Positions 11,034-32,694 of a DNA stretch of 64,000 nt are shown here, one piece after another. The notes beneath the pieces are model-generated. The model searched no databases. It worked only from the letters and a program-made list of their open reading frames with translations, and was not told the DNA's origin. Numbering within the stretch: position 1 is the stretch's first letter; each line of letters starts with the position of its first letter. A program made the position numbers and the translations under genes. This DNA comes from a virus, in IMG/VR virus record IMGVR_UViG_3300044641_010328, positions 26,979 to 90,978 of that record; one strand, written 5' to 3'.

Positions 11034-11297
11034 CTAGAGTCCCTCGTAGTGTTTGAAGTCCTTCTGCGTGAGGACTATCTCGTTTCCGTCGCCGCTGTGC
11101 GCAATTATGCTAATCTTTCCCTTCAGTATGCGAACATCATCGACTGTGTACGTGAGGCCTGACTTCTTGTGGATGATCTTAAAACCGGGTGTGATTAGAA
11201 TCTTTTGGTTCTTTCCCTTTCCGACAGATACTTTCAGTGCTTCCTGAATGTATCTCTTCATCATATCCTGGATGTCATTTCCTGTGATTGTTCTCAT
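11034..11297 (-). CDS. small beta-rich protein (87 aa)
   Basis: Function unknown. The N-terminal 20 residues form a helix (GNDIQDMMKRYIQEALKVSV). The rest looks like a compact five-stranded barrel (ILITPGFKIIHKKSGLTYTV, then KISIIAHSGDGNEIVL). The start lies inside the end of the dCMP deaminase gene, overlapping by 23 bases. Confidence 0.65.
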   Translation of the reverse strand: MRTITGNDIQDMMKRYIQEALKVSVGKGKNQKILITPGFKIIHKKSGLTYTVDDVRILKGKISIIAHSGDGNEIVLTQKDFKHYEGL

Positions 11298-11763
11298 CAG
11301 CTGAATCCGCCATTATGTTATTTATCTTCCTTACACGAATTCCTGCCACATTAAGCAGCCCTATGCCACTAGAATCTCTATATTCATCTCTGTAGACGAC
11401 TTCTGAGATTCCTGCGTTGATTATTGCCTTTGCACACATCTTGCAGGGACTCATGCTAATATACATTATCTTCTTCTTCGGGTTGTTATAGTCAAGCTTA
11501 ATAAGAGCATTAACCTCAGCATGAATGAACCCAGACTCTCCTGGATCTGATGATTCACGAGTGTTTGGTCCGCCTGCGTGATCACCGTTATATCCTAGAG
11601 CAAGAAGCTGCGTGTTATCGCTTGTGACTATTATTGAAGCAACCTTGTGAACTGGATCATTTGACCTCTTCTCTATTGTTCCAATGACCTCAATCCAGAT
11701 TTGGTCCCAGGATGGTCGATGCTGGTAGGTGTGTCTGAGATCATCTAGAAAATCACTTGCCAT
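11275..11763 (-). CDS. cd: deoxycytidylate (dCMP) deaminase
   Basis: This enzyme deaminates dCMP to dUMP to feed thymidylate synthesis. Zinc-site residues are in place: HAE at 81-83 (His ligand and catalytic Glu) and SPCKMC at 105-110 (two Cys ligands). The length of 162 residues is close to other phage enzymes. T4 cd is the family prototype, and gene symbols are given by analogy. It overlaps the DHH phosphoesterase gene by 11 bases and sits at the end of a nucleotide cluster with thymidine kinase and the kinase/TS-like fusion. The product dUMP would be the substrate of ThyX. Confidence 0.93.
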   Translation of the reverse strand: MASDFLDDLRHTYQHRPSWDQIWIEVIGTIEKRSNDPVHKVASIIVTSDNTQLLALGYNGDHAGGPNTRESSDPGESGFIHAEVNALIKLDYNNPKKKIMYISMSPCKMCAKAIINAGISEVVYRDEYRDSSGIGLLNVAGIRVRKINNIMADSADENNHRK

Positions 11764-14186: not shown

Positions 14187-15059
14187 CTAAGGAACAATGT
14201 GTGCACAATTTAGGCACACTTTGACTCGAATATCTCTAGATTCAAGACCAATCAAATTCTGAGCCTTGAAACCAATGTGAATCAGCGCATCAAGATCTAT
14301 CTTCAGATTTTTTGGCACGTTGGTTGATCTGCACACAATGTCAAGGACATCATGCTCTGGTCTATGCATAAATCGAACGTATGATATGCAGCTTGAATTT
14401 GCTGTTACAAACCTACGGGATCCTGCTCCCTGACCCGACTCCATCTCTTTTATGATTCTGTCCATAAGATCATCATTTATCTGCCCGTAATATTCCTCTT
14501 CACCTGGCACTGAGAGTGCACCTGGTCCGAGGTTGTCAGACTGAGATGCAATCACCTCAAACTTCAAATCAAGAGATTCATTTCTCCCTGTGGCAGACAG
14601 CGCACTCTCAACATAGTTTGTCATCTTTTCTGTGCTTACAAACTCTCTGCTATGAACAATGTCGCGAACCGCCTCGGGATCTGGAATTCCCTTGCATGTA
14701 ATCACAGAAGGATGGTCTCTCAGCGCCAGTGATTGTGTGTTGAATGCCTCCCACGTGGTCCGTAGTGAACCAAGGTCGTGCATCTCATCGCCTCTGGCAG
14801 CAAACCGCGCTGTAACTGTGCTCCATTCGGGTGCAAGAAAGACGACAACATTATTCAAATCATCGAGAAACCTGTGAAGCTCGCCGGACTCGTGGCTGTT
14901 ATCACGGCCAAAGATCTTTGGATACACAGCACGACTGATGTGACCCCGATCTCGAATATCATACCTGAAGTTTGTAGACCTGTGAAGTTGTCCGTAGAAA
15001 GTTGACTTGCCCGAGAGATCACAGCCCTCAAGAACAATCTGCCTTGTTGGTAGCCTCAT
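14187..15059 (-). CDS. P-loop nucleotide kinase fused to thymidylate-synthase-like domain
   Basis: The N-terminal half (about 1-140) is a thymidylate/deoxynucleoside kinase-like P-loop protein with EGCDLSGKST at 11-20. The C-terminal part (about 185-290) shows the signature order of the thymidylate synthase/dNMP hydroxymethylase fold. C224 is in SCISYVRF (compare the catalytic CHxxxQF), RSTNVPKNL is at 244-252 (compare RSxDxxxGxPxN), and CAHIV is near the end (compare DAHIY). The N-terminal half of TS, with the phosphate-binding loop and part of the folate site, seems missing or replaced. If active, the fusion could couple base modification and phosphorylation. If not, the TS part may be regulatory. 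It overlaps the DnaE start region by 4 bases. Confidence 0.65.
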   Translation of the reverse strand: MRLPTRQIVLEGCDLSGKSTFYGQLHRSTNFRYDIRDRGHISRAVYPKIFGRDNSHESGELHRFLDDLNNVVVFLAPEWSTVTARFAARGDEMHDLGSLRTTWEAFNTQSLALRDHPSVITCKGIPDPEAVRDIVHSREFVSTEKMTNYVESALSATGRNESLDLKFEVIASQSDNLGPGALSVPGEEEYYGQINDDLMDRIIKEMESGQGAGSRRFVTANSSCISYVRFMHRPEHDVLDIVCRSTNVPKNLKIDLDALIHIGFKAQNLIGLESRDIRVKVCLNCAHIVP

Positions 15060-18000
15060 ACCTGAATCTTCCTCATCTTGTTATTGTTCGTGGAGAATCC
15101 CCAGTTCGGATCCTTGCTGACCTCTGCGATGTAGATCTCGTAGTGGTTAAGTGGCATCTCGCCCCAGATCCGGAGATTGACCGTCTGCATCTCATTATCG
15201 CACACCTGTGCCCGAATGAAACCTTTACCATTCTTGGTCTTCTTTACATTGAAGTCCTTCACCAGGAACCAGCAGATCCCCTTCTCATTGTCGCCAACCT
15301 CAGTGATCGGACCAACCTGTGCCTTCTTGATCTTGGCGATGATGTCCTCGGGGAACATCAGGTCCTCACGAGAGGTCGAGGTGAGATCGAAGTACATCTT
15401 CAGCTTCTCAGATCGAGTCCAATCCGGAAGATTCTCGTAGTTCTCAAACAGCTTCCAGAAGGTGACCTCAGGCTGCCGACCTTCCTTGATCAGCTTCTTC
15501 ATCTCGGTCTTGGTGTATCCGAACCGACCGCGCCTGAGGATGTCGTAGTTCTTTTCCTCAGTCAGGGTCGCCAAGAGCTGGCGGTGATTTGTCACCTTGC
15601 CGGACTTGAAGTCCTCCAGCGATCGAAGCGCCTCGACGCTGCAGAGCGAGGTGAGTGTGGTCTTGTTCACCTTTGAGTGCCTCCAGGCGCCGTCCTCAGT
15701 GTACAGCATGGACTCGATCGAGATGTAGGGGCGGTTGTCCATGATCTCGGCAACAGCCGTTTCGCCTACTCCCTTGATGGAGGACAGCGGCGGAACGAAG
15801 CCCTGCAGTTCGTGGCTGTACATCCAGACAAGACCCGAGCTATTGATGTCTGGTGGGTGGATCTTGAATCCCTGCTCCTTGATCTCAGTTGCAACCTTCG
15901 CAAGGCCTTCGGGATTAGAGTTCTCGGACTGGAGGCAGGTGGCAAGCCATTCCTCCTCGTAGTGCTTGTGAAGCCAGGCAGCGTAGTAGGAATCGACAGC
16001 ATACGATACGGAGTGAGACTTGTTGAAGCCATATGCAGAGAATGCCTCGATCGTCTCGTAGAGCTCTGTCGCATCCTTGACTGACATGCCGTTCAGGTTC
16101 ACCGCACCATCAACAAACCGCTTGCGAAGGTCCTCGCGCTCCTTGGCCTTCTTCTCATTCATGTCCAGAGACTTCTTGACCAGAGTCTTACGCATCTGAT
16201 CAGATTCACCGGGATTGAAGCCAGCAAGCTTCTGTGCCAGGAGCATGAACTGCTCCTGGTAGACGACGAATCCGTGTGTCGGCCCGAGGACGTCCTTCAG
16301 GATTGGATGCTTATAGGTTGCAAGCCCCTTGTTCTTGACCTCGACATACTTCTTGTGGACACCGGCAGCGAGTGGACCAGGACGATAGATCGCGGTGATG
16401 GCGGACAGGTCCTCGATCGAGGTGGGCTTCGCCTCGAGGCAGAACTTTCGAGCACCGCTGTTTGTGAACTGGAAGACCTGTGTGAATCGCCCCTCGTGAT
16501 AGACGTGCTTCCAGACGTCCTGGTCATCCATCTCGTTGTATCGAATGTTTAGATTCTTGTCGAAGAAGTCCTTGACCTGTGCGAAAGTCGGATCCTTGAT
16601 GCCATGCCGTGTCTGGAGGACCATTCGAATGCAGTCCTCAACCATCTTCAGAAGAGAGAGACCGAGGAAGTCGAACTTGAGGAAGCCGTTCTCCTCGAGA
16701 TGCCGGAAGTTCATACCTTCAGACCAGGGTGTCTGGATCTCACCGCGGACTGAGATGACCGGCATGTGATCCTCAAGCTTTGGGCAGATGAGGACGCCGC
16801 CTGCATGCCGGCCAATCGATCGTGTTTCCATGAAGAGAGACTGGACCTGCTCACAGAGCTCCGGATACTTCTCCATGAAGATCTTGTACTTTTCAGAGTA
16901 CTTCATGCAGTCAGCGTGAGACAGGACGTAGGTGCTCTTTTCCTCGTGGTCACCTAGTGCCCTGTGCATGACATCGTCCTGCAGCGGACCAGTGACCTCG
17001 TTCACCTCCTCGAACGGAATACCATGGAACTTTGCGATGTCCTTAATCAGGGACTTCAGCTTCAAGGTATTGAAGTTCGAGACCGGAACAACAGAGGCCT
17101 CTCCGAATAGCTTGCGTGCCTCATCGATTAGAACATCACGATCACCGACGTCAGTGTCGATGTCAGGCCACGCGACCTTGTGGCGACCGAGGAACCGCTC
17201 CCACAGGAGGTCGTACTTGATCGGATCAACCGATGTGATGCCGAGGACGTAGTTGACCAGAGATCCTGCACCCGATCCGCGACCAGGACCGATCAGCGTT
17301 CGATGCTGTGCACGGTCGAAGACGAAATAGAGAGTGAGGAAGTAGTTCTCGAACTTGAGATACTTGATGTCATCAAGCTCCATCTTCAGTCGTTCGACGT
17401 ATTCAGGTTTCGTGTGAAGACCGAGCTCAACAAGACCCTTCTTGCACATGTCAAGGAGCTGGTTGAAGGCAGTCTGCTCGGGCTTGTTAAAGCTCGGAAG
17501 CTTTGCAGAGGAATCGAAGGAGATCTCCTCACACTTTTCCCAGGCGATGTCATGAGTCCGCTCGATCGACTCCTTGACCAGAAGCTCAGTCCCCTTGTAG
17601 AAGTCGTGCTGGTCCTTGTGAGCAAGGTACTCATCCCACATCTGCTGTGCGTTCTTAGGATACAGCTCGCACTTGAGCTCCTCGAAGGCAGGCAGCGTCT
17701 GCTTCTGCATGTCATCAGAGCGGCCGCCCATACGGCCAAGCTTCTTGTAGAGCTCACGCGCCTGCCAGACGTTCGGGCTGTAGTAGTGAGAATCTGCGGT
17801 CGCGATCGTCTTGATGCCGGTGCGCTTCGACAGGTCAATCAGGTGCTTGTTGGTCGTGTGCTGGATGTCAAGCTTGTTGAACTGGAGCTCGAGGAAGAAG
17901 TTGTCGATTCCAACCGCATCGACAAATCGATCCGTGTGATTTTGGAGCTCACGCTGGATCTGCTCATGAGGCTTCTTCAGCGCCTCACCGCGAATCGAGG

Positions 18001-18613
18001 TCGAAGCAAGAAGGCCTCCGACACATGCAGTCGAGACCACAAGCCCTTCACCATGCTGCTTGAGCATGTTGTAATCGATGCGAGGAAACTTGTAGTAGCC
18101 CTCGACGTAGGACCGCTTGACAAGGTTGAACAGGTTCTTGAGCCCAGTTCGATTCTTGGCAAAGACGACCAGATGATACCGGCGCTTCCATTCATCTGCA
18201 TCATCAGAGTCAACAGACTTGGTCTCCTCCTCGTCCTCGACAACAAGGCCTCCGGTCACCTCCTCCTCAGCGAGGATGTCAATCTTCTCAGGCTTGCCTT
18301 CCTCGTTCTTTGCGCGTTTTGCCTCGAAGTGAGCAGCGCGCTTCTTTTCCCAATCAAGAAGAGATGGGACAAAGTAGAACTCGACGCCATAAAGCTGCCG
18401 GTACTTACGTCCCTTACCCTTCATTTTCCTAGAATAGGTGTGAGCGTGAGCGAGGCCGTTGCCGCTACCGTGGTCAGTCAGCGCCCATGCGTCCATGCCA
18501 TTATGGAGGACCCAGTCGATGTGCTTATCAGGATAGCCAAGTCCGTCATTGACGCTGAAACCTGAGTGCGCATGCAAACCGACAAAACGATTCGGTGGTT
18601 CGATGATGCTCAT
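15056..18613 (-). CDS. dnaE: DNA polymerase III alpha subunit (family C, DnaE type)
   Basis: A replicative polymerase of 1185 residues. It begins with a PHP domain (FVGLHAHSGFSVNDGLG, then ALTDHGSGNG). It continues with the family C palm: GPGRGSGAGSLVNYVLG near residue 440, the catalytic WPDIDTDVGDRD near 480, and FLKFDFLGL near 645, which contributes the third Asp. An HhH region and a C-terminal OB-like fold follow (about 1090-1185). The length is close to bacterial DnaE (about 1160). T4 and most of its relatives use a family B polymerase, so this is a notable replacement. It is followed, with a 4-base overlap, by the kinase/TS-like fusion, and is probably transcribed with the nucleotide genes. 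Confidence 0.96.
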   Translation of the reverse strand: MSIIEPPNRFVGLHAHSGFSVNDGLGYPDKHIDWVLHNGMDAWALTDHGSGNGLAHAHTYSRKMKGKGRKYRQLYGVEFYFVPSLLDWEKKRAAHFEAKRAKNEEGKPEKIDILAEEEVTGGLVVEDEEETKSVDSDDADEWKRRYHLVVFAKNRTGLKNLFNLVKRSYVEGYYKFPRIDYNMLKQHGEGLVVSTACVGGLLASTSIRGEALKKPHEQIQRELQNHTDRFVDAVGIDNFFLELQFNKLDIQHTTNKHLIDLSKRTGIKTIATADSHYYSPNVWQARELYKKLGRMGGRSDDMQKQTLPAFEELKCELYPKNAQQMWDEYLAHKDQHDFYKGTELLVKESIERTHDIAWEKCEEISFDSSAKLPSFNKPEQTAFNQLLDMCKKGLVELGLHTKPEYVERLKMELDDIKYLKFENYFLTLYFVFDRAQHRTLIGPGRGSGAGSLVNYVLGITSVDPIKYDLLWERFLGRHKVAWPDIDTDVGDRDVLIDEARKLFGEASVVPVSNFNTLKLKSLIKDIAKFHGIPFEEVNEVTGPLQDDVMHRALGDHEEKSTYVLSHADCMKYSEKYKIFMEKYPELCEQVQSLFMETRSIGRHAGGVLICPKLEDHMPVISVRGEIQTPWSEGMNFRHLEENGFLKFDFLGLSLLKMVEDCIRMVLQTRHGIKDPTFAQVKDFFDKNLNIRYNEMDDQDVWKHVYHEGRFTQVFQFTNSGARKFCLEAKPTSIEDLSAITAIYRPGPLAAGVHKKYVEVKNKGLATYKHPILKDVLGPTHGFVVYQEQFMLLAQKLAGFNPGESDQMRKTLVKKSLDMNEKKAKEREDLRKRFVDGAVNLNGMSVKDATELYETIEAFSAYGFNKSHSVSYAVDSYYAAWLHKHYEEEWLATCLQSENSNPEGLAKVATEIKEQGFKIHPPDINSSGLVWMYSHELQGFVPPLSSIKGVGETAVAEIMDNRPYISIESMLYTEDGAWRHSKVNKTTLTSLCSVEALRSLEDFKSGKVTNHRQLLATLTEEKNYDILRRGRFGYTKTEMKKLIKEGRQPEVTFWKLFENYENLPDWTRSEKLKMYFDLTSTSREDLMFPEDIIAKIKKAQVGPITEVGDNEKGICWFLVKDFNVKKTKNGKGFIRAQVCDNEMQTVNLRIWGEMPLNHYEIYIAEVSKDPNWGFSTNNNKMRKIQV

Positions 18614-19893: not shown

Positions 19894-20328
19894 TTATTCG
19901 ATGTGTCCGTAGTAGGGCTCGAAGAGGGGCTTCCCTTCTGCAATGGATCGCTGGAGATAGTCGCGCAGATCCTCATAGGAGGTTGTAACCTTAACGCCAG
20001 ATTGAGCTAGCATCAAATTGAAGTTGCCTGTGAGACCCTGCGCAAAGTAGACAATTGGAACGCCAGCGTTGTATGCCACACCTGCCTCAAAAATTGTGCC
20101 CATGTCCTTATCGCGCGTGTTGCAGAGAACAAAGTCAGCTGTTCGAATGTGATCAACATTTCCTTTGAATGTGTCCTTCTGAACCTGGAGAGAAGCTGTT
20201 GGGGGACAGATAAAGATCTTGCGCGGCGATGCAACATCAAGACCAAGATCTCCTAGCAAATTTTCCAGAGCCTCGACTTCCTCGAGCGCCTTAGGTGTGA
20301 ACCAGCCAGATGCGAGATATACCTTCAT
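19894..20328 (-). CDS. nucleoside 2-deoxyribosyltransferase family protein
   Basis: The enzyme family moves deoxyribose between bases or hydrolyses deoxynucleotides. From the ATG at 20328 (GAGG six bases before it) the 144-residue product begins MKVYLASGWF. It carries the family motif RDKDMGTIFEAGVAYNAGVP with D75 and the catalytic-type E81. Family members are near 150 residues. An extension of 11 codons to 20361 is rejected because it lacks a ribosome-binding site. The role could be salvage of deoxynucleosides or removal of unwanted dNMP during phage DNA synthesis. Confidence 0.85.
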   Translation of the reverse strand: MKVYLASGWFTPKALEEVEALENLLGDLGLDVASPRKIFICPPTASLQVQKDTFKGNVDHIRTADFVLCNTRDKDMGTIFEAGVAYNAGVPIVYFAQGLTGNFNLMLAQSGVKVTTSYEDLRDYLQRSIAEGKPLFEPYYGHIE

Positions 20329-20369
20329 TTTGAACCTCACATAAACAATAGTGGCGCACATCGTTGTTT

Positions 20370-26476: not shown

Positions 26477-27427
26477 TTAAAAATCTCTACGAGCCTTGTA
26501 ATTACTCACAATCTCGTCAATCTCTCCTAGAATCTCATTCCAGAGCGTCCGGAAGTGTGGGACACCGCCATCTGTTCCGTTCATGTCATCTCGTGTGGCC
26601 TGGTAGATCGTGTCATTCGGGTGGTAGGTGAGGTGCTTCTCGCTGTCCTCGTCAGGCCAGTAGAGGTTGGTACCTGTTCCATTGCGGAATGTCTTGATGT
26701 AGTGCCATGCAGGCTCGCGAAGATTGATCGCAACATGAGCCTCGGGGAAGACGCGGAGGATCTCACGTGCCATGAGTGCCGCAAGCATGTTATCCTCCTC
26801 AGGCTGGATCTGCTTGTCCTGACGCTGCTTAATGAACATGAAAGCATCGCGGATGTTCATGCGCATGTAGTAGAACGTCTCGAGGCACTTCGGGAGGATA
26901 TGACGAGCGTCCATGAGAGAGATCTTCTTGGAGTCGACCATGTCAACATAGAGCGCCTTTGCATCCTCTACGTGATTCTTCCAGCGCTCATAGAACTCAG
27001 GGCTATTCTGGATCGAGCCTGGAACTAGGCTGCGCTCGTGAGAGAGCCAGCGATCACCTGTGCACTGCGCCGCAAAAGATCCGGCACGATGACGAATGAG
27101 ATGAGTTACTGTCTGAGTATCGATTCCACCCACAAGGAAGGTGAGACCGATTAGCTCCATTGCTGCAGGAAGGGCACGACCCGCAAAGACGTCCTCCATG
27201 GTCTTTGAGAGATCTGCTTCAGAAGCCTCAGCATAGGGAACATGCTTATCAGCCCACGTGGACTTAACGAAACAATAAACTGCCTGTCGGATCGTCTTTG
27301 GATCAGGGCTGTCGACAAGCTCGAGCTTAAGCGCATCGAGGCTATTTACGAACTTGGTTGTAGGCCGCTCGTCGAAACGAATTGCCATGGGAAGGTTAAT
27401 GGGCTGTAGATCTAGATTTTGTGGCAT
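26477..27427 (-). CDS. divergent ThyX-superfamily protein (second ThyX)
   Basis: A 316-residue relative of FAD-dependent thymidylate synthase. The signature region is HLIRHRAGSFAAQCTGDRW (109-127), which keeps the RHR and Ser of the ThyX motif (RHRxxSxNExSxRY) but replaces the NE/RY part with QC and DRW. The long helical C-terminal half (LMDARHILPKCLETFYYMRM and DAFMFIKQRQDKQIQPEEDN) is also in the ThyX pattern. It is about 100 residues longer than the other ThyX here (30841-31473). A dUMP-modifying activity other than plain methylation is possible but unproven. It lies directly downstream of the MazG-HAD fusion gene. Confidence 0.75.
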   Translation of the reverse strand: MPQNLDLQPINLPMAIRFDERPTTKFVNSLDALKLELVDSPDPKTIRQAVYCFVKSTWADKHVPYAEASEADLSKTMEDVFAGRALPAAMELIGLTFLVGGIDTQTVTHLIRHRAGSFAAQCTGDRWLSHERSLVPGSIQNSPEFYERWKNHVEDAKALYVDMVDSKKISLMDARHILPKCLETFYYMRMNIRDAFMFIKQRQDKQIQPEEDNMLAALMAREILRVFPEAHVAINLREPAWHYIKTFRNGTGTNLYWPDEDSEKHLTYHPNDTIYQATRDDMNGTDGGVPHFRTLWNEILGEIDEIVSNYKARRDF

Positions 27428-27436
27428 TAATTTCTC

Positions 27437-28354
27437 CTATCGAAGATTATCGATGATTTTGGTCAAGTTTTCAACTAGAATCACGCCTTCTTGCCGCTGG
27501 AGTGATTTATTGTAAGGCTGAATTGGGCTAAATGTCCGAAGTCCATGAGAGGCAAACTCTGCTGCATGCTTTGGCGAGTCATCTACACAGAAGGCAACGT
27601 GTCCTGCAAACTTTGACTGGATGATCCAGAGGAACTTCTCTCCGCTGAAGGCTACATCATCAAAGTAGAGACCCGAGCTGTGAAGCCATCGTGCTGTGTC
27701 AAAGAGGCAGAGAGGATTGTCTGCAGGGCGTGCTGTCAGGATCTGGACCCAATACCCAAGTCGCTGTAGCTCATGCGTGAATTCGGCTGCATCACTGACA
27801 GCCGGAATGTCGCGAAGCTTGCGCTCTGCTATGAACTCCTTGAAGAGGCGCTCTGTGTTATGCCCTAGATCTTGAGCAGCTGATGCAGCATAGTACTCTG
27901 GACAGTCATACGAAATCACTGCTCCCTTCGTCTCAGCAAGCCACTCAAAGAACGAGCGTCTGAACTCTGCAAGCACATCATCCATGTCAAGGATTGCTAC
28001 TGGACGACCATCCCAAGACTTCTTAGACAGGTTATGCCTGAAGTGAAGGTAAGCATCCTTGTCCTCGAAGGCATCAACAAGCTCTTTCTCATTGATGTCC
28101 CAGACATTCATGATTGCCATCAGATATCTGATCACATCAATGCTCTCATACAAGATCTTTGTCCGGTCTGGCATCTTGCGATCCATTCGGTGATCTTTGA
28201 AATTGATTGATGATACAAGATCTGAGATCTCAGAATGCAATTCAAGAGCAAATGATTTTGTCATCTGCTCTTTCTCTACGTCTGTGAATGTCTTGCTATC
28301 GAAGAAAAGATTAGAGAATGCACGCTGACGATGCAGCATCTCTTTTAGGGTCAC
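27437..28354 (-). CDS. MazG/dUTPase-like domain fused to HAD phosphatase
   Basis: Two domains in one 305-residue protein, starting with GTG. The N-terminal part (about 1-110) has the metal-binding pattern of all-alpha NTP pyrophosphatases: ELHSEISD (38-45) and ESIDVIRYLM (70-79). The C-terminal part (about 118-305) is a haloacid-dehalogenase phosphatase with DMDDVLAEF (D123, D125), LTARP (motif II) and CVDDSPKHA (motif IV), similar to 5'-nucleotidases. Together they could turn a dNTP into dNMP and then nucleoside, removing an unwanted nucleotide from the pool. Adjacent are another MazG-like gene and the divergent ThyX. Confidence 0.85.
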   Translation of the reverse strand: MTLKEMLHRQRAFSNLFFDSKTFTDVEKEQMTKSFALELHSEISDLVSSINFKDHRMDRKMPDRTKILYESIDVIRYLMAIMNVWDINEKELVDAFEDKDAYLHFRHNLSKKSWDGRPVAILDMDDVLAEFRRSFFEWLAETKGAVISYDCPEYYAASAAQDLGHNTERLFKEFIAERKLRDIPAVSDAAEFTHELQRLGYWVQILTARPADNPLCLFDTARWLHSSGLYFDDVAFSGEKFLWIIQSKFAGHVAFCVDDSPKHAAEFASHGLRTFSPIQPYNKSLQRQEGVILVENLTKIIDNLR

Positions 28355-28363
28355 GTTAGTCCT

Positions 28364-28735
28364 CTAGTATTTACTCTTAATCCTATCGTGAATGATCCTA
28401 TCTTTATTAACGTACGCCTCAAAAAGCTCATCAGGCGTAACTCCCATAATAATCAGAAGAGAGAGGAAGTAGTTAAAAGAGTCAACCATCTCCTCCTTGA
28501 ATGCGGCTCGATCAAAATCGCGAATCTCTGTCTGTCGATGAGACTTTGCGTTCTTTAGCTCTTGCACTGCCTCAAAGACCTCTTCGACACCACGAAGTGC
28601 AAGATCTCTGAGATGTTGCTGTGTAGCCTTGTTTGTCAGATCGACAGGCATCTCTGGATAGACATCTGGGACCTGCTTCTGCAAGGCTGTCATGAAGTCC
28701 TTGCGAAGTTCAAACATTTGATCGAGCTTGTCCAA
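28364..28735 (-). CDS. dimeric dUTPase-like / MazG-type nucleotide pyrophosphatase
   Basis: A 123-residue all-alpha protein with GVEEVFEAVQELKNAKSHRQ (E51, E52, E55) and FKEEMVDSFNYFLSLLI (E82, D85). This is the metal-binding arrangement of dimeric dUTPases and MazG enzymes, and it ends with a helix containing the YVNKDRIIHDR pattern typical of that family. It would hydrolyse dUTP (or dCTP) to the monophosphate and supply dUMP for the ThyX enzymes while keeping uracil out of DNA. The gene lies 9 bases upstream of the MazG-HAD fusion start. Confidence 0.85.
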   Translation of the reverse strand: MDKLDQMFELRKDFMTALQKQVPDVYPEMPVDLTNKATQQHLRDLALRGVEEVFEAVQELKNAKSHRQTEIRDFDRAAFKEEMVDSFNYFLSLLIIMGVTPDELFEAYVNKDRIIHDRIKSKY

Positions 28736-28736
28736 T

Positions 28737-28976
28737 TTAGTCCTCTAGAGACTCAGGTGGAGACATTGCGGCAATTGCAGCAATCATTCGGTTAAGGCTC
28801 TCATCAAATTTGCTGAGATAGGCGGGATCAGGAGAAAGCTGCTCTCGCTCATCGACAACCAGGCGAATCGTCCTGAGGTTGTCAACGATGTCAGTGCCTG
28901 ATAGAATCGCGATCTGAAGAAGTCGTGCAATCTGTGAGATTGTGTCATCTGATAGTCCATAAGTCGTTGTTGCCAT
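28737..28976 (-). CDS. small helical protein (79 aa)
   Basis: Function unknown. The N-terminal segment YGLSDDTISQIARLLQIAIL is followed by SGTDIVDNLRTIRLVVDERE and then a helix. The sequence is regular and well conserved in feel, and it sits tightly between the Nei-like glycosylase and the dUTPase-like gene (gaps of 9 and 1 bases). This suggests co-expression with nucleotide and repair enzymes. No catalytic motif is seen. Confidence 0.65.
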   Translation of the reverse strand: MATTTYGLSDDTISQIARLLQIAILSGTDIVDNLRTIRLVVDEREQLSPDPAYLSKFDESLNRMIAAIAAMSPPESLED

Positions 28977-28985
28977 TTGTTTTCC

Positions 28986-29789
28986 TTATTTCTGAATTTC
29001 TGGGATCCAAAAGGTAGTCCGTCCGTCCTTCGTCGTCTCTCTCTTTACCTCTCTACCTTCTGGATCCTTGGGCTGATTGTAGACTGCAAAGCGGCGACTG
29101 TAATCTCCCTTTTGTCCATCAAAACCTGAAAATGTGTAGATGGTGGCGCCACCAGTCTCATATGACTTCCTAATAACATTCTTAATCACAGAATTGAGTG
29201 TTTTCAACTCATCTTCAGATAAGGTGTTAGTTTCTCTATGGGGACTGAGTCTGCTAAAATACAAGCATTCAGACTTTAGATAGTTTCCTACTCCGCTAAT
29301 TACAGACTGATCCATAAGAACTTCTGCTAGCGTTCTATTCTTCTTCTTAATAGATCTAATAAAGACAGCGTCTGATACATCTTCAGCAAGCATATCTGGA
29401 CCTAAAGTCTTCAGCTTCGCTGCCAGCGAATCTTTTTTGTCAATTAGTTTTAATGTGCCGAAGTTTCTCATATCATTGAAGTAGATCTCTCCTCCGTCGT
29501 CCAAATCAAACTGAATCCTGCTGTGCTTTCTCTCAACAGCTGACCAGCTTCCAGTCATTCCTAAAGTGTTGAAAATATGCATCCCATTGTCAAGACTGAT
29601 GTAGATGAATTTTCCCTTACAGCCAACTTCAGAAACTTTGACATTCAGAAAATGATTCAGACTTTCCCATCCTTCAGGATTCTTCTTTGTGTAGCGTCCT
29701 GATAGAATTCTCATATCAGAAATCTTCTTGTTCAAGATTCTTTCACGAATCCCGTCAGATACAACTTTTACCTCTGGGCCCTCTGGCAC
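28986..29789 (-). CDS. Fpg/Nei family DNA glycosylase (zincless finger)
   Basis: A base-excision enzyme of 267 residues. The catalytic N-terminus MPEGPEVKVV (P2, E3), the lysine region GCKGKFIYISL (K60), and the helix-two-turn-helix SGVGNYLKSECLYFSRLSP are all present. The C-terminal finger lacks the four zinc cysteines. It reads VYNQPKDPEGREVKRE then DGRTTFWIPEIQK, with the conserved Arg and the GRTT-W-P-Q pattern of NEIL-type zincless fingers. It would remove oxidised bases and cut the strand. The next gene upstream encodes an MBD4-like glycosylase, so two repair glycosylases are paired. Confidence 0.93.
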   Translation of the reverse strand: MPEGPEVKVVSDGIRERILNKKISDMRILSGRYTKKNPEGWESLNHFLNVKVSEVGCKGKFIYISLDNGMHIFNTLGMTGSWSAVERKHSRIQFDLDDGGEIYFNDMRNFGTLKLIDKKDSLAAKLKTLGPDMLAEDVSDAVFIRSIKKKNRTLAEVLMDQSVISGVGNYLKSECLYFSRLSPHRETNTLSEDELKTLNSVIKNVIRKSYETGGATIYTFSGFDGQKGDYSRRFAVYNQPKDPEGREVKRETTKDGRTTFWIPEIQK

Positions 29790-29803
29790 GTAACCTCCTA
29801 ATT

Positions 29804-30226
29804 TTATTGACTATTTACCCATCGCCAGTAATTCTTCAGCGCACCGTCCTTGGGCTCTGGAATCTTTGACCACGCATGATTACAGAAGATCTTGTATGCT
29901 GCAGCAGCGTAATCTCCGATCCCATACAGATCTTTCGGATCTCTCTTATCCCACGTCAGATAGTCCTGTGACATCTTGACAAGAGTCTTGCTTCTCCGAT
30001 CTCCGAGACCAAGATCCTTGATTAGATCTCTGACTTCTTCAGTGCTTGCATTCGCAGCGTCCTTTGCAGTTGGCCACCGATCAAAGAACTGCCACATAAG
30101 TGGTTCAGCTTCGACACGCTTTGTCAGATTGCAGAAAATACAAACAACAAAAACACGCCAAGGATCATCCTGGACGTGTTCTTGAATGAGGTTGTAGGGT
30201 GAACGCGGTGCGTGCATACCATACAA
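29804..30226 (-). CDS. MBD4-like HhH-GPD DNA glycosylase
   Basis: The 140-residue protein closely resembles the glycosylase domain of eukaryotic MBD4: APRSPYNLIQEHVQDDPWRV at the start, then VVCIFCNLTKR, LIKDLGLGDRRSKTL, the hairpin LYGIGDYAAAAYKIFC (100-115) and the end PEPKDGALKNYWRW. The end carries the catalytic Asp (D127, matching D560 of MBD4). MBD4 removes T, U or 5-hydroxymethyluracil opposite G. Here it may protect the phage from deamination of C or of a modified base. No ribosome-binding site is seen before the first ATG; starts at 30226 or 30217 are both possible. Confidence 0.88.
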   Translation of the reverse strand: MYGMHAPRSPYNLIQEHVQDDPWRVFVVCIFCNLTKRVEAEPLMWQFFDRWPTAKDAANASTEEVRDLIKDLGLGDRRSKTLVKMSQDYLTWDKRDPKDLYGIGDYAAAAYKIFCNHAWSKIPEPKDGALKNYWRWVNSQ

Positions 30227-30840: not shown

Positions 30841-31473
30841 TCAATAGCCAAATGCTTCAATTGTGTCTCGGAATGGGTTTCCTGGAATTTCTTTGACCTG
30901 ACTTAGCATGTCCTCTGCAAGCCAGCAAATCTCTCTCTGTGCATCTGGCTTCAATCGAAGCCCAAGAAAATGCGAGAATGATCGCCAGTTGAACATAACG
31001 TCCATTGTGATCTGATTTCCATATGGAAGGTAGAAACGTGCAGATTCCTTTGCTCGCTTCCTGCTCATTCCGCCATCAACAAGGCGCCTGAGTGTGTCAT
31101 GATATCGCATGATTGCGTCTTCCATGAAGGCAATGTACCGAGACTGCTCTTCCAGGGGCCAATCTTTGGGAAGATAGTACTTGTCATCCTTCAGCTCCTT
31201 GTACCTCGCTGACTCAGCATTGATTGAGACGCCAATTCTATGCTTTAGTAGCTGAATGTGCGTTGCACAGTCGACAGTTGCGAGAAAGTGCAAAGAGCTT
31301 TTCTCAAATGGCGTCTCGTGACCATTTTCAGCCAGCATCCTTAGAAGCGCCGGAATTCTTTCATGCTTTTCAGGTGTAAGATCTCGGCTTGTGCTTGTCC
31401 ACGCTGATAGCGCATGAACATCATCGCCGCCGTACCACCCGACTAGCTCAACCTTGTTTTCTTGAAATGACAC
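30841..31473 (-). CDS. thyX: FAD-dependent thymidylate synthase ThyX
   Basis: Makes dTMP from dUMP with methylene-tetrahydrofolate and FADH2. The ThyX motif reads KHRIGVSINAESARY (77-91), matching RHRxxSxNExSxRY apart from the first Arg, which is Lys. The helical C-terminus RAKESARFYLPYGNQITMDV contains the substrate-binding R and YG/N residues. The length of 210 residues is normal. The gene is followed by the WXXGXW protein and preceded with overlap by the DUF2061 gene. The phage carries no complete ThyA in this window, only a TS-like domain at 14187-15059. Confidence 0.95.
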   Translation of the reverse strand: MSFQENKVELVGWYGGDDVHALSAWTSTSRDLTPEKHERIPALLRMLAENGHETPFEKSSLHFLATVDCATHIQLLKHRIGVSINAESARYKELKDDKYYLPKDWPLEEQSRYIAFMEDAIMRYHDTLRRLVDGGMSRKRAKESARFYLPYGNQITMDVMFNWRSFSHFLGLRLKPDAQREICWLAEDMLSQVKEIPGNPFRDTIEAFGY

Positions 31474-31678
31474 TTCTAATCCTCTCTCTAATGTTTTTAT
31501 CCCAGATTAGCTCAAAGATCCATTGCAAAAACGTGAGTGACAAACCTGACACAAGCACCATGGTTGAAGAAACCAAAATGTCGCCGGTAAACAGATAAGT
31601 CACCCATGTTCCAAATAGCATTGAGAATGCACGCCACACAGCTGTCTTGATGAGGAGCTCAATACTATTTGAATCCAT
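31448..31678 (-). CDS. DUF2061-like membrane protein (76 aa)
   Basis: The 76-residue product starting MDSNSIELLIKTAVWRAFS has two membrane-spanning segments (about 12-30 and 35-55) and ends with a basic cytoplasmic tail. The pattern KT-x-WR ... TYLFTGD ... FELIWDKN resembles DUF2061, a small membrane family of unknown role. The ATG at 31678 overlaps the glutamine synthetase stop as TGATG, which decides the start over a longer upstream frame. Confidence 0.7.
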   Translation of the reverse strand: MDSNSIELLIKTAVWRAFSMLFGTWVTYLFTGDILVSSTMVLVSGLSLTFLQWIFELIWDKNIRERIRSVISRKQG

Positions 31679-32694
31679 CAAGATGCTTCCAGGAGCAGCC
31701 TTGTCACTGTGTAAGGATCCATGTTGGCACATGGACGTCTATCTTCGAAATATCCGCATCCTGCCTTTGAAACGTGAAGCGGGATTCTAATAGAAGCACC
31801 TCGATCGGAAACACCGCACCTAAATTCCTTGTAAGAGCATGTCTCGTGTTGTCCTGTTAGGCGCTGCTCAATTCCGTGGCCATAATACGGAATATAGTCG
31901 TCATGCAATCGCCGGAGTATGCTTAGAATTCGATCGATCTCTGCCATTCCTCCTTCCTCATCGCGCGTTGCGGCTGTTGACCAGTTTGTGTGAGCGCCTG
32001 CTCCATTGAGCTCGCGAACAGGCTTTGGATCTAGCTTGGCATTTATTCCGTAGTCCTCTCCTATCCGGTAGAGGAGCCACCTTGCAAGCCACAGATGGTC
32101 AGACACGACAACGGGATCACCTGTTCCAATCTGGAACTCCCATTGACCAGGCATAACCTCAGCATTGACACCGCAAATCATGAGCTCAGCATCCATGCAG
32201 GCTTTCATGTGCGCCTCTACGAGATCTCTTCCGCACACCTCGTCAGCGCCTACACCGCAGTAGTAGGGCCCCTGCTGTGGTGGGTAACCTCCCGTAGGCC
32301 ATCCTAGTGGAGTTCCACCTCTAAAAAGTGTATACTCCTGTTCAATTCCGCATAATGGAATCTTTGATCCCTTTCGCTCCATTAGCCTGACCAGGTGATG
32401 TCGTGTGTTAGTTCGATGGGGAGTTCCGTCTGCATTGTAGACTTCACACAGAACTAGAATTGCAGGCCTTTCCTTTGATCGAATTGGATCCTTACAGAAT
32501 GAGACAGGAAATAGAATGCAATCACTCTTGTCACCGGGAGCCTGTCCTGTCGATGATCCATCAAATGTCCACTGTGGAACATCAGATATTGATAGCTTTT
32601 CTCCTGAAAATGGAAAAATCTTGGTCTTGCTTCTTAGCTTGGACGTGGGTGTAGTCCCGTCTATCCAGATGTACTCTGCGATTATGTTTACCAT
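31678..32694 (-). CDS. glnII: glutamine synthetase, GSII (eukaryotic/rhizobial) type
   Basis: Catalyses ATP-dependent amidation of glutamate. The 338-residue length and motifs are those of GSII: WTFDGSSTGQAPGDKSD, GIEQEYTLF, CGVNAEVMPGQWEFQIG, RELNGAGAHTNWST, CSYKEFRCGVSDRGASIRIP and the final FEDRRPCANMDPYTV. Metal and glutamate-binding Glu residues are all present, so it should be active. GSII is found in rhizobia, some actinomycetes and eukaryotes, and is rarely reported in phages. It could raise glutamine supply for nucleotide synthesis. It is coupled to the DUF2061 gene (TGATG) and follows the ClpP gene by 7 bases, inside the phage gene order, so it is not a contaminant. Confidence 0.97.
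   Translation of the reverse strand: MVNIIAEYIWIDGTTPTSKLRSKTKIFPFSGEKLSISDVPQWTFDGSSTGQAPGDKSDCILFPVSFCKDPIRSKERPAILVLCEVYNADGTPHRTNTRHHLVRLMERKGSKIPLCGIEQEYTLFRGGTPLGWPTGGYPPQQGPYYCGVGADEVCGRDLVEAHMKACMDAELMICGVNAEVMPGQWEFQIGTGDPVVVSDHLWLARWLLYRIGEDYGINAKLDPKPVRELNGAGAHTNWSTAATRDEEGGMAEIDRILSILRRLHDDYIPYYGHGIEQRLTGQHETCSYKEFRCGVSDRGASIRIPLHVSKAGCGYFEDRRPCANMDPYTVTRLLLEAS

Follow-up and report, generated by a model that had tools for sequence, protein, structure and literature searches.

The gene run and its conservation

The DNA considered here is a stretch of 64,000 nucleotides (hereafter, the window) from IMG/VR virus record IMGVR_UViG_3300044641_010328, a 90,978-bp virus contig. Six open reading frames (ORFs), separated by gaps of 1-14 nucleotides, occupy positions 26477-30226 of its minus strand, among them the gene for a divergent member of the ThyX family of thymidylate synthases, designated ThyX2. 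The original prediction for this locus held that the six genes together could control which pyrimidine enters phage DNA and repair deaminated or modified bases, possibly in connection with a non-standard base. All six genes it named were confirmed, and their identities were borne out by domain searches. In the following list, "module core" denotes genes that travel with ThyX2, and "lineage background" those that do not; a canonical ThyX (ThyX1) and a nucleoside 2-deoxyribosyltransferase (NDT) encoded outside the run are included.

26477..27427, minus strand: ThyX2, a divergent ThyX-fold flavoenzyme, module core (Pfam Thy1; motif RHRAGSFAAQCTGDRW)
27437..28354, minus strand: MazG-HAD, a fusion of a MazG/dUTPase_2-like domain with an NT5C-type HAD 5'-nucleotidase, module core (domain searches)
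28364..28735, minus strand: small MazG/dUTPase_2-like pyrophosphohydrolase, lineage background (phrog_12184, 4e-19)
28737..28976, minus strand: u79, a 79-amino-acid protein with the motif TGTDIxDxxR, a core gene of the lineage (alignment of relatives)
28986..29789, minus strand: zincless Fpg/Nei-type DNA glycosylase, lineage background (domain and PDB matches)
29804..30226, minus strand: MBD4-type HhH-GPD DNA glycosylase, lineage background (matches to MBD4 structures)
30841..31473, minus strand: ThyX1, a canonical ThyX just upstream of the six-gene run (NCBIfam thyX, 99.1 bits)
19894..20361, minus strand: NDT, module core (Pfam Nuc_deoxyrib_tr, 4e-13)

The order HhH-Nei-u79-MazG-MazG-HAD-ThyX2 recurs in almost all of the 12 closest viral loci, so the set is no chance arrangement, and the conservation in other phages that a neighborhood check was to look for is indeed found. 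One of these loci (L009) lacks both glycosylases. ThyX2 is the best conserved gene of the run, with identities of 77-94% across the 12 loci versus 40-94% for MazG-HAD. No nucleotide-level match to cultured phages was found.

ThyX2, a virus-borne subfamily with an altered active site

ThyX2 matches Pfam Thy1 with 71 bits (E 1.2e-19), and it falls below the curated cut-off of the NCBIfam ThyX family (TIGR02170; 46.8 versus 87.9 bits), which ThyX1 exceeds. It carries a conserved, family-specific C-terminal extension of ~80 amino acids. An AlphaFold model (mean confidence, pLDDT, 86.5) superimposes on ThyX structures with Z scores of 14-16 over ~200 residues, the match to 3hzg having a Z score of 15.8 with 212 residues aligned. 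In a phylogeny with a small taxon sample and long branches, ThyX2 forms a monophyletic clade of its own (UFBoot 100). A profile search recovered relatives in 148 viral stretches, of which 80 loci were kept; one cultured phage, Geobacillus phage GR1, has a ThyX2 that is 46% identical over 98% of the length. A scan of 85k prokaryote species genomes with two short peptide patterns gave 26 pattern matches and no relative, and since only these two patterns were used, absence from prokaryotes is not proven. ThyX2 is thus a ThyX-fold subfamily, so far found in viruses only. The divergent ThyX proteins of Xanthomonas phage XcP1 and others (~25% identity) have different motifs and were set aside.

Residues were mapped onto Thermotoga maritima ThyX (TM0449), using a sequence consistent with a separately aligned chain; numbers below follow that protein. 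Like the T. maritima and Mycobacterium tuberculosis enzymes, ThyX2 retains the flavin- and nucleotide-binding residues R78, H79 and R80 (the RHR motif), E58, R147, N163, R174 and Q180; in its own numbering, the RHR motif (R112, H113, R114) and the equivalent of Arg174 (R202) are invariant. It departs from both in its C-terminal extension, its sub-cut-off score and a rebuilt QCTGDR loop. The folate-stacking His53 is replaced by Leu and Ser88, the serine of RHRx7S, by Cys in 28 of 28 ThyX2 proteins, none of which has a Tyr at position 91; Glu86 is invariantly Ala, and His178 invariantly Gln. Placement of the loop after Cys122 of ThyX2 is uncertain because the alignment requires an insertion there. 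Every member read contains RHRxx[ST]xxAQCTGDR, an invariance due in part to the search patterns, although the motif is also present in loci that were recovered differently, three of them via ThyX1.

ThyX enzymes depend on Ser88, Arg90 and Tyr91 to use the flavin carbinolamine, and their His53 stacks against the folate; residues reported as strictly conserved and required for methylation are replaced in ThyX2 (PMC8316439, PMC11940539). As read from the alignment, the changes argue against plain thymidylate synthesis. ThyX2 does have an invariant Arg174, the residue that activates uracil N3 (PMC8316439); this would slightly favor deoxyuridine monophosphate (dUMP) over deoxycytidine monophosphate (dCMP) as substrate. 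An altered substrate range on a ThyX fold, as proposed here for ThyX2, has a parallel in PolB, the UMP/dUMP methylase of Streptomyces cacaoi, which matches in fold (Z 14.8) at an identity of ~20%.

ThyX1 retains Ser88, Arg90, Tyr91 and His53. In the window copy, KHR stands in place of RHR and the serine is preceded by one additional residue; one relative (L012:4544-5173) has KSR. At two loci (L007:2871-4455 and L011:81-2505) ThyX1 occurs twice, in part, which could reflect an intron, a homing-endonuclease insertion or a partial duplication.

A canonical ThyX accompanies ThyX2 in 19 of 40 records, so ThyX2 is often not the sole thymidylate synthase. ThyA (PF00303), the type to which the dUMP hydroxymethylases of hmU-type systems belong, was found in none of the 40, with control genomes positive. 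These counts bear on a rival explanation, namely that ThyX2 is a second thymidylate synthase using another reductant or one-carbon donor, with MazG-HAD and NDT cleaning the pool or salvaging nucleotides, raising thymidine triphosphate (dTTP) and removing deoxyuridine triphosphate (dUTP), and with ordinary DNA as the outcome. The retained ThyX fold and its nucleotide- and flavin-binding residues speak for it, as do the roughly half of long ThyX2 records in which no other thymidylate synthase is present; nucleotide salvage is, besides, common in large phages. Yet canonical ThyX is also present in those 19 records, residues required for methylation are replaced in every ThyX2 member, and a nucleoside-destroying NDT at every locus (see below) would be odd for a mere supply of dTTP. 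We regard this explanation as rather unlikely, although it has to be taken seriously.

Genes that travel with ThyX2

Neighbors were listed for 81 ThyX2 loci, which dereplication at 85% identity reduced to 28. NDT is present in all 28, usually directly downstream of ThyX2 and mostly no more than 100 nucleotides away, and a nucleotidase-type gene (MazG-HAD, HD or HAD) in 24. The type of nucleotidase differs by lineage: NT5C-type HAD in the window, YfbR-type HD in GR1 and in L060, L070 and L084. Tail-fibre-like genes separate NDT from ThyX2 by 6 kb in the window; at L008, L010 and others NDT follows ThyX2 directly.

An independent sample consisted of 25 long phage records for which ThyX1 was the sole selection criterion. 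Six of them contain a ThyX2-type enzyme; the same six contain NDT and MazG-HAD, whereas the remaining 19 have none of these genes (Fisher 5.6e-6 for each), and the link holds among records of at least 60 kb (4/4 versus 0/11). Three of these six records have, as their ThyX2-type enzyme, a distant variant with 20-22% identity, and for this reason it is the slot, not just one sequence, that is tied to NDT and MazG-HAD. This variant, ThyX3 (motif FTRGRVGWAYCVTSQ, with RGR instead of RHR), takes the ThyX2 slot at L174:2254-5145, L175:3308-6208 and L176:3862-5910. It is flanked by MazG-HAD on one side and, on the other, by a dTMP-kinase-like gene, a flavin-reductase-like gene (NAD(P)H type, by inspection) and NDT; the NDT of L175 and L176 is 90% identical to that of the window.

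The remaining four genes of the run behave differently. Comparing ThyX2-positive with ThyX2-negative records of the same sample, MBD4-like genes occur in 5/6 versus 9/19, Nei in 3/6 versus 8/19 (excluding one weak partial match), small MazG in 6/6 versus 13/19 and u79 in 6/6 versus 15/19, with no significant link for any of them (Fisher p 0.18-1.0). Among the 28 dereplicated loci, Nei is found in 11 and the HhH cluster label in nine, of which that of L056 is a false assignment. The glycosylases, rejected as module members by their presence and absence in the ThyX1-picked records, and the small MazG and u79, rejected since they are present also in ThyX2-negative relatives, are lineage background. 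That the whole run, glycosylases included, forms one system for inserting and repairing a modified base, as first suggested, could appeal to the adjacency and synteny of the genes in the closest relatives; with similar rates of the four genes in relatives lacking ThyX2, and with many ThyX2 loci devoid of glycosylases, it is very improbable. A modified-base role for the glycosylases is not supported. What stands of the pyrimidine-control system is a conserved nucleotide-pool module around a divergent ThyX with an altered site, to which ThyX2 and MazG-HAD belong, and whose most faithful partner, NDT, had been overlooked.

The C-terminus of MazG-HAD is an NT5C-type HAD (E 1.6e-5), with the HAD motif DMDDV/DDSP in relatives; its N-terminus and the small protein of 28364-28735 are weakly dUTPase_2/MazG-like, and the latter may feed dUMP. 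NDT exceeds the Pfam Nuc_deoxyrib_tr cut-off, has the N-deoxyribosyltransferase of PDB 6evs as its best solved relative (E 2e-11), and keeps the conserved Glu of GT[IW]xEAG. The MBD4-type protein (140 amino acids) matches the whole catalytic domain of human and mouse MBD4 structures (E 7e-33); the catalytic Asp aligns and its flanking Tyr is kept. It differs in lacking the methyl-CpG domain, and the phage proteins have Leu or Gln at the Arg position of FLNRTS. The Nei-type protein, whose best PDB match is mimivirus Nei1 (E 3e-44), has an N-terminal PEGPEV, an H2TH domain and a zincless finger devoid of the zinc cysteines. u79 is found in 21 of the 25 ThyX1-picked records, with or without ThyX2, and has invariant Q21, G27, D29, D32 and R35 across relatives; its model (pLDDT 84) gave no significant structural match in BFVD.

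Three further genes of nucleotide metabolism and replication lie on the same strand of the window.

14187..15059, minus strand: P-loop protein resembling deoxynucleoside monophosphate (dNMP) kinases, motif LEGCDLSGKST, adjoining the polymerase (by inspection; no Pfam match)
15056..18613, minus strand: C-family DNA polymerase III alpha with a PHP-type N-terminus (named by inspection)
11275..11763, minus strand: dCMP deaminase, which makes dUMP (Pfam dCMP_cyt_deam_1, 4e-19)

A P-loop dNMP-kinase-like gene is near ThyX2 in 15 loci, and a C-family polymerase is downstream of NDT in many. Cultured phage GR1 has NDT, a YfbR-type 5'-deoxynucleotidase, a thymidylate-kinase-like protein, a PHP/C-family polymerase and a dUTPase_2 protein, and a nitroreductase adjoins its ThyX2.

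A possible route to a modified pyrimidine

From the gene order, co-inheritance, fold and residue changes shown above we infer a series of reactions, a product and the presence of that product, a non-standard base, in phage DNA. ThyX2 would bind flavin together with a pyrimidine deoxynucleotide, dUMP being the likeliest substrate and dCMP a possible one, and move a one-carbon or other unit onto C5. Because the active-site loop and the folate-side residues are rebuilt, the product would be a 5-substituted dNMP other than thymidine monophosphate (dTMP), the simplest candidate being 5-hydroxymethyl-dUMP; we put the chances that ThyX2 makes an altered product at around even. A dTMP-kinase-like enzyme, for which the P-loop protein at 14187-15059 is a candidate, would lift the modified dNMP to the triphosphate for the C-family polymerase of the phage. 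MazG-HAD would convert a deoxynucleoside triphosphate (dNTP) to the dNMP and on to the nucleoside, from which NDT would release the free base or exchange it, and the two enzymes would thereby form a disposal line against the competing canonical pyrimidine nucleotide. ThyX1 would separately supply ordinary dTMP; its presence implies that T is replaced in part only, or that the base replaced is C. That ThyX2, MazG-HAD and NDT constitute a nucleotide-level module feeding a non-canonical pyrimidine into the precursor pool is, in our estimate, evenly balanced. The broader proposal, in which a virus-specific flavoenzyme derived from ThyX yields a 5-substituted pyrimidine replacing T or C, while a disposal line of its own (MazG-HAD, or MazG with an HD nucleotidase, followed by NDT) removes the canonical competitor, making the whole the pyrimidine equivalent of the 2-aminoadenine (Z) system, is more tentative and falls somewhat short of an even chance.

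The same scheme could run on the other substrate. ThyX2 would then convert dCMP to a 5-substituted dCMP that replaces cytosine, like T4 gp42, while MazG-type enzymes would act like the T4 gp56 dCTPase, ThyX1 would supply ordinary T, and the MBD4-type glycosylase would remove T or hydroxymethyl-U arising by deamination. The coexistence of ThyX1 and dCMP deaminase in one genome mirrors T4 td and cd, and MBD4 acts on T, U and hydroxymethyl-U opposite G. This version is improbable, given the invariance in ThyX2 of Arg174, the activator of uracil N3, and the absence of significant tracking of ThyX2 by MBD4-like genes.

Known systems offer partial parallels for the proposed production of a modified pyrimidine by ThyX2. 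Bacillus phage SP-15, which contains a hypermodified uracil, encodes two Thy1 proteins (gp9 and gp130), with an NDT (gp127) near the second, and its authors proposed that the second Thy1 protein makes hydroxymethyl-dUMP (PMC5977210). What it shares with the present case is a pair of Thy1-family proteins, the divergent one lying close to an NDT. Homology between ThyX2 and gp130 was rejected, as BLASTP and hhalign detected no similarity, so SP-15 is an analogy and not a member; it also differs in that the neighbor of gp130 is a FabG-like reductase. A divergent Thy1 near a FabG-like short-chain dehydrogenase is seen both in SP-15 and in Xanthomonas phage XcP1 (L089:230-3411, L090:5860-8401), and may represent another pyrimidine-modification pairing. 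Phages with 2-aminoadenine clear away the canonical competitor by means of the NDT-family enzyme DmtZ and of dUTPase-like pyrophosphohydrolases (PMC12884076). Those cassettes (PurZ with DatZ/MazZ or DutZ/DmtZ) share with the present one a base-analogue synthase, a pyrophosphohydrolase and an NDT-family enzyme; theirs is a purine system built on PurZ, whereas here the enzyme is a pyrimidine enzyme of ThyX fold, and the analogy is functional only. In mildiomycin biosynthesis, a thymidylate-synthase-type pyrimidine enzyme (MilA) and an NDT-superfamily N-glycosidase (MilB) act in one pathway (PMC5175136, PMC4081090); MilA differs in preferring CMP, in belonging to the thymidylate synthase and not the ThyX family, and in serving secondary metabolism.

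Several points weigh against a modified base made by ThyX2. Despite its replaced residues, the enzyme could still function as a thymidylate synthase that draws on another donor, and a phage that both makes dTMP through ThyX1 and destroys it must be a partial replacer like SP-15, or else have deoxycytidine triphosphate (dCTP) as its target. SP-15 gp130 is not detectably similar to ThyX2 in sequence, as noted above. We found no biochemistry or nucleoside analysis of any ThyX2 member, and a term search for DNA modification in the GR1 endolysin paper turned up no test of the phage's DNA. The p-values given above ignore shared ancestry, related phages not being independent samples, and some records are fragments or may be incomplete.

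If the proposal is correct, it describes a new route to a modified DNA pyrimidine, via a ThyX-type enzyme. To our knowledge, the phage enzymes characterized as producing hydroxymethyl-pyrimidine nucleotides belong to the ThyA type; a ThyX-type enzyme for this purpose has, as far as we found, been proposed for SP-15 only. ThyX2 proteins occur widely across viral metagenomes, and the one cultured member, GR1, makes the family accessible. Even if the product were dTMP, a ThyX would be working without the textbook catalytic serine and tyrosine and without the folate-stacking histidine.

Two other features of the window may be recorded. A glutamine synthetase-like phage protein at 31678-32694 appears short (338 amino acids), and its gene adjoins ThyX1 in some relatives. 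At 54011-59961, two big tandem proteins of 960 and 1013 amino acids resemble tail sheath proteins by inspection.

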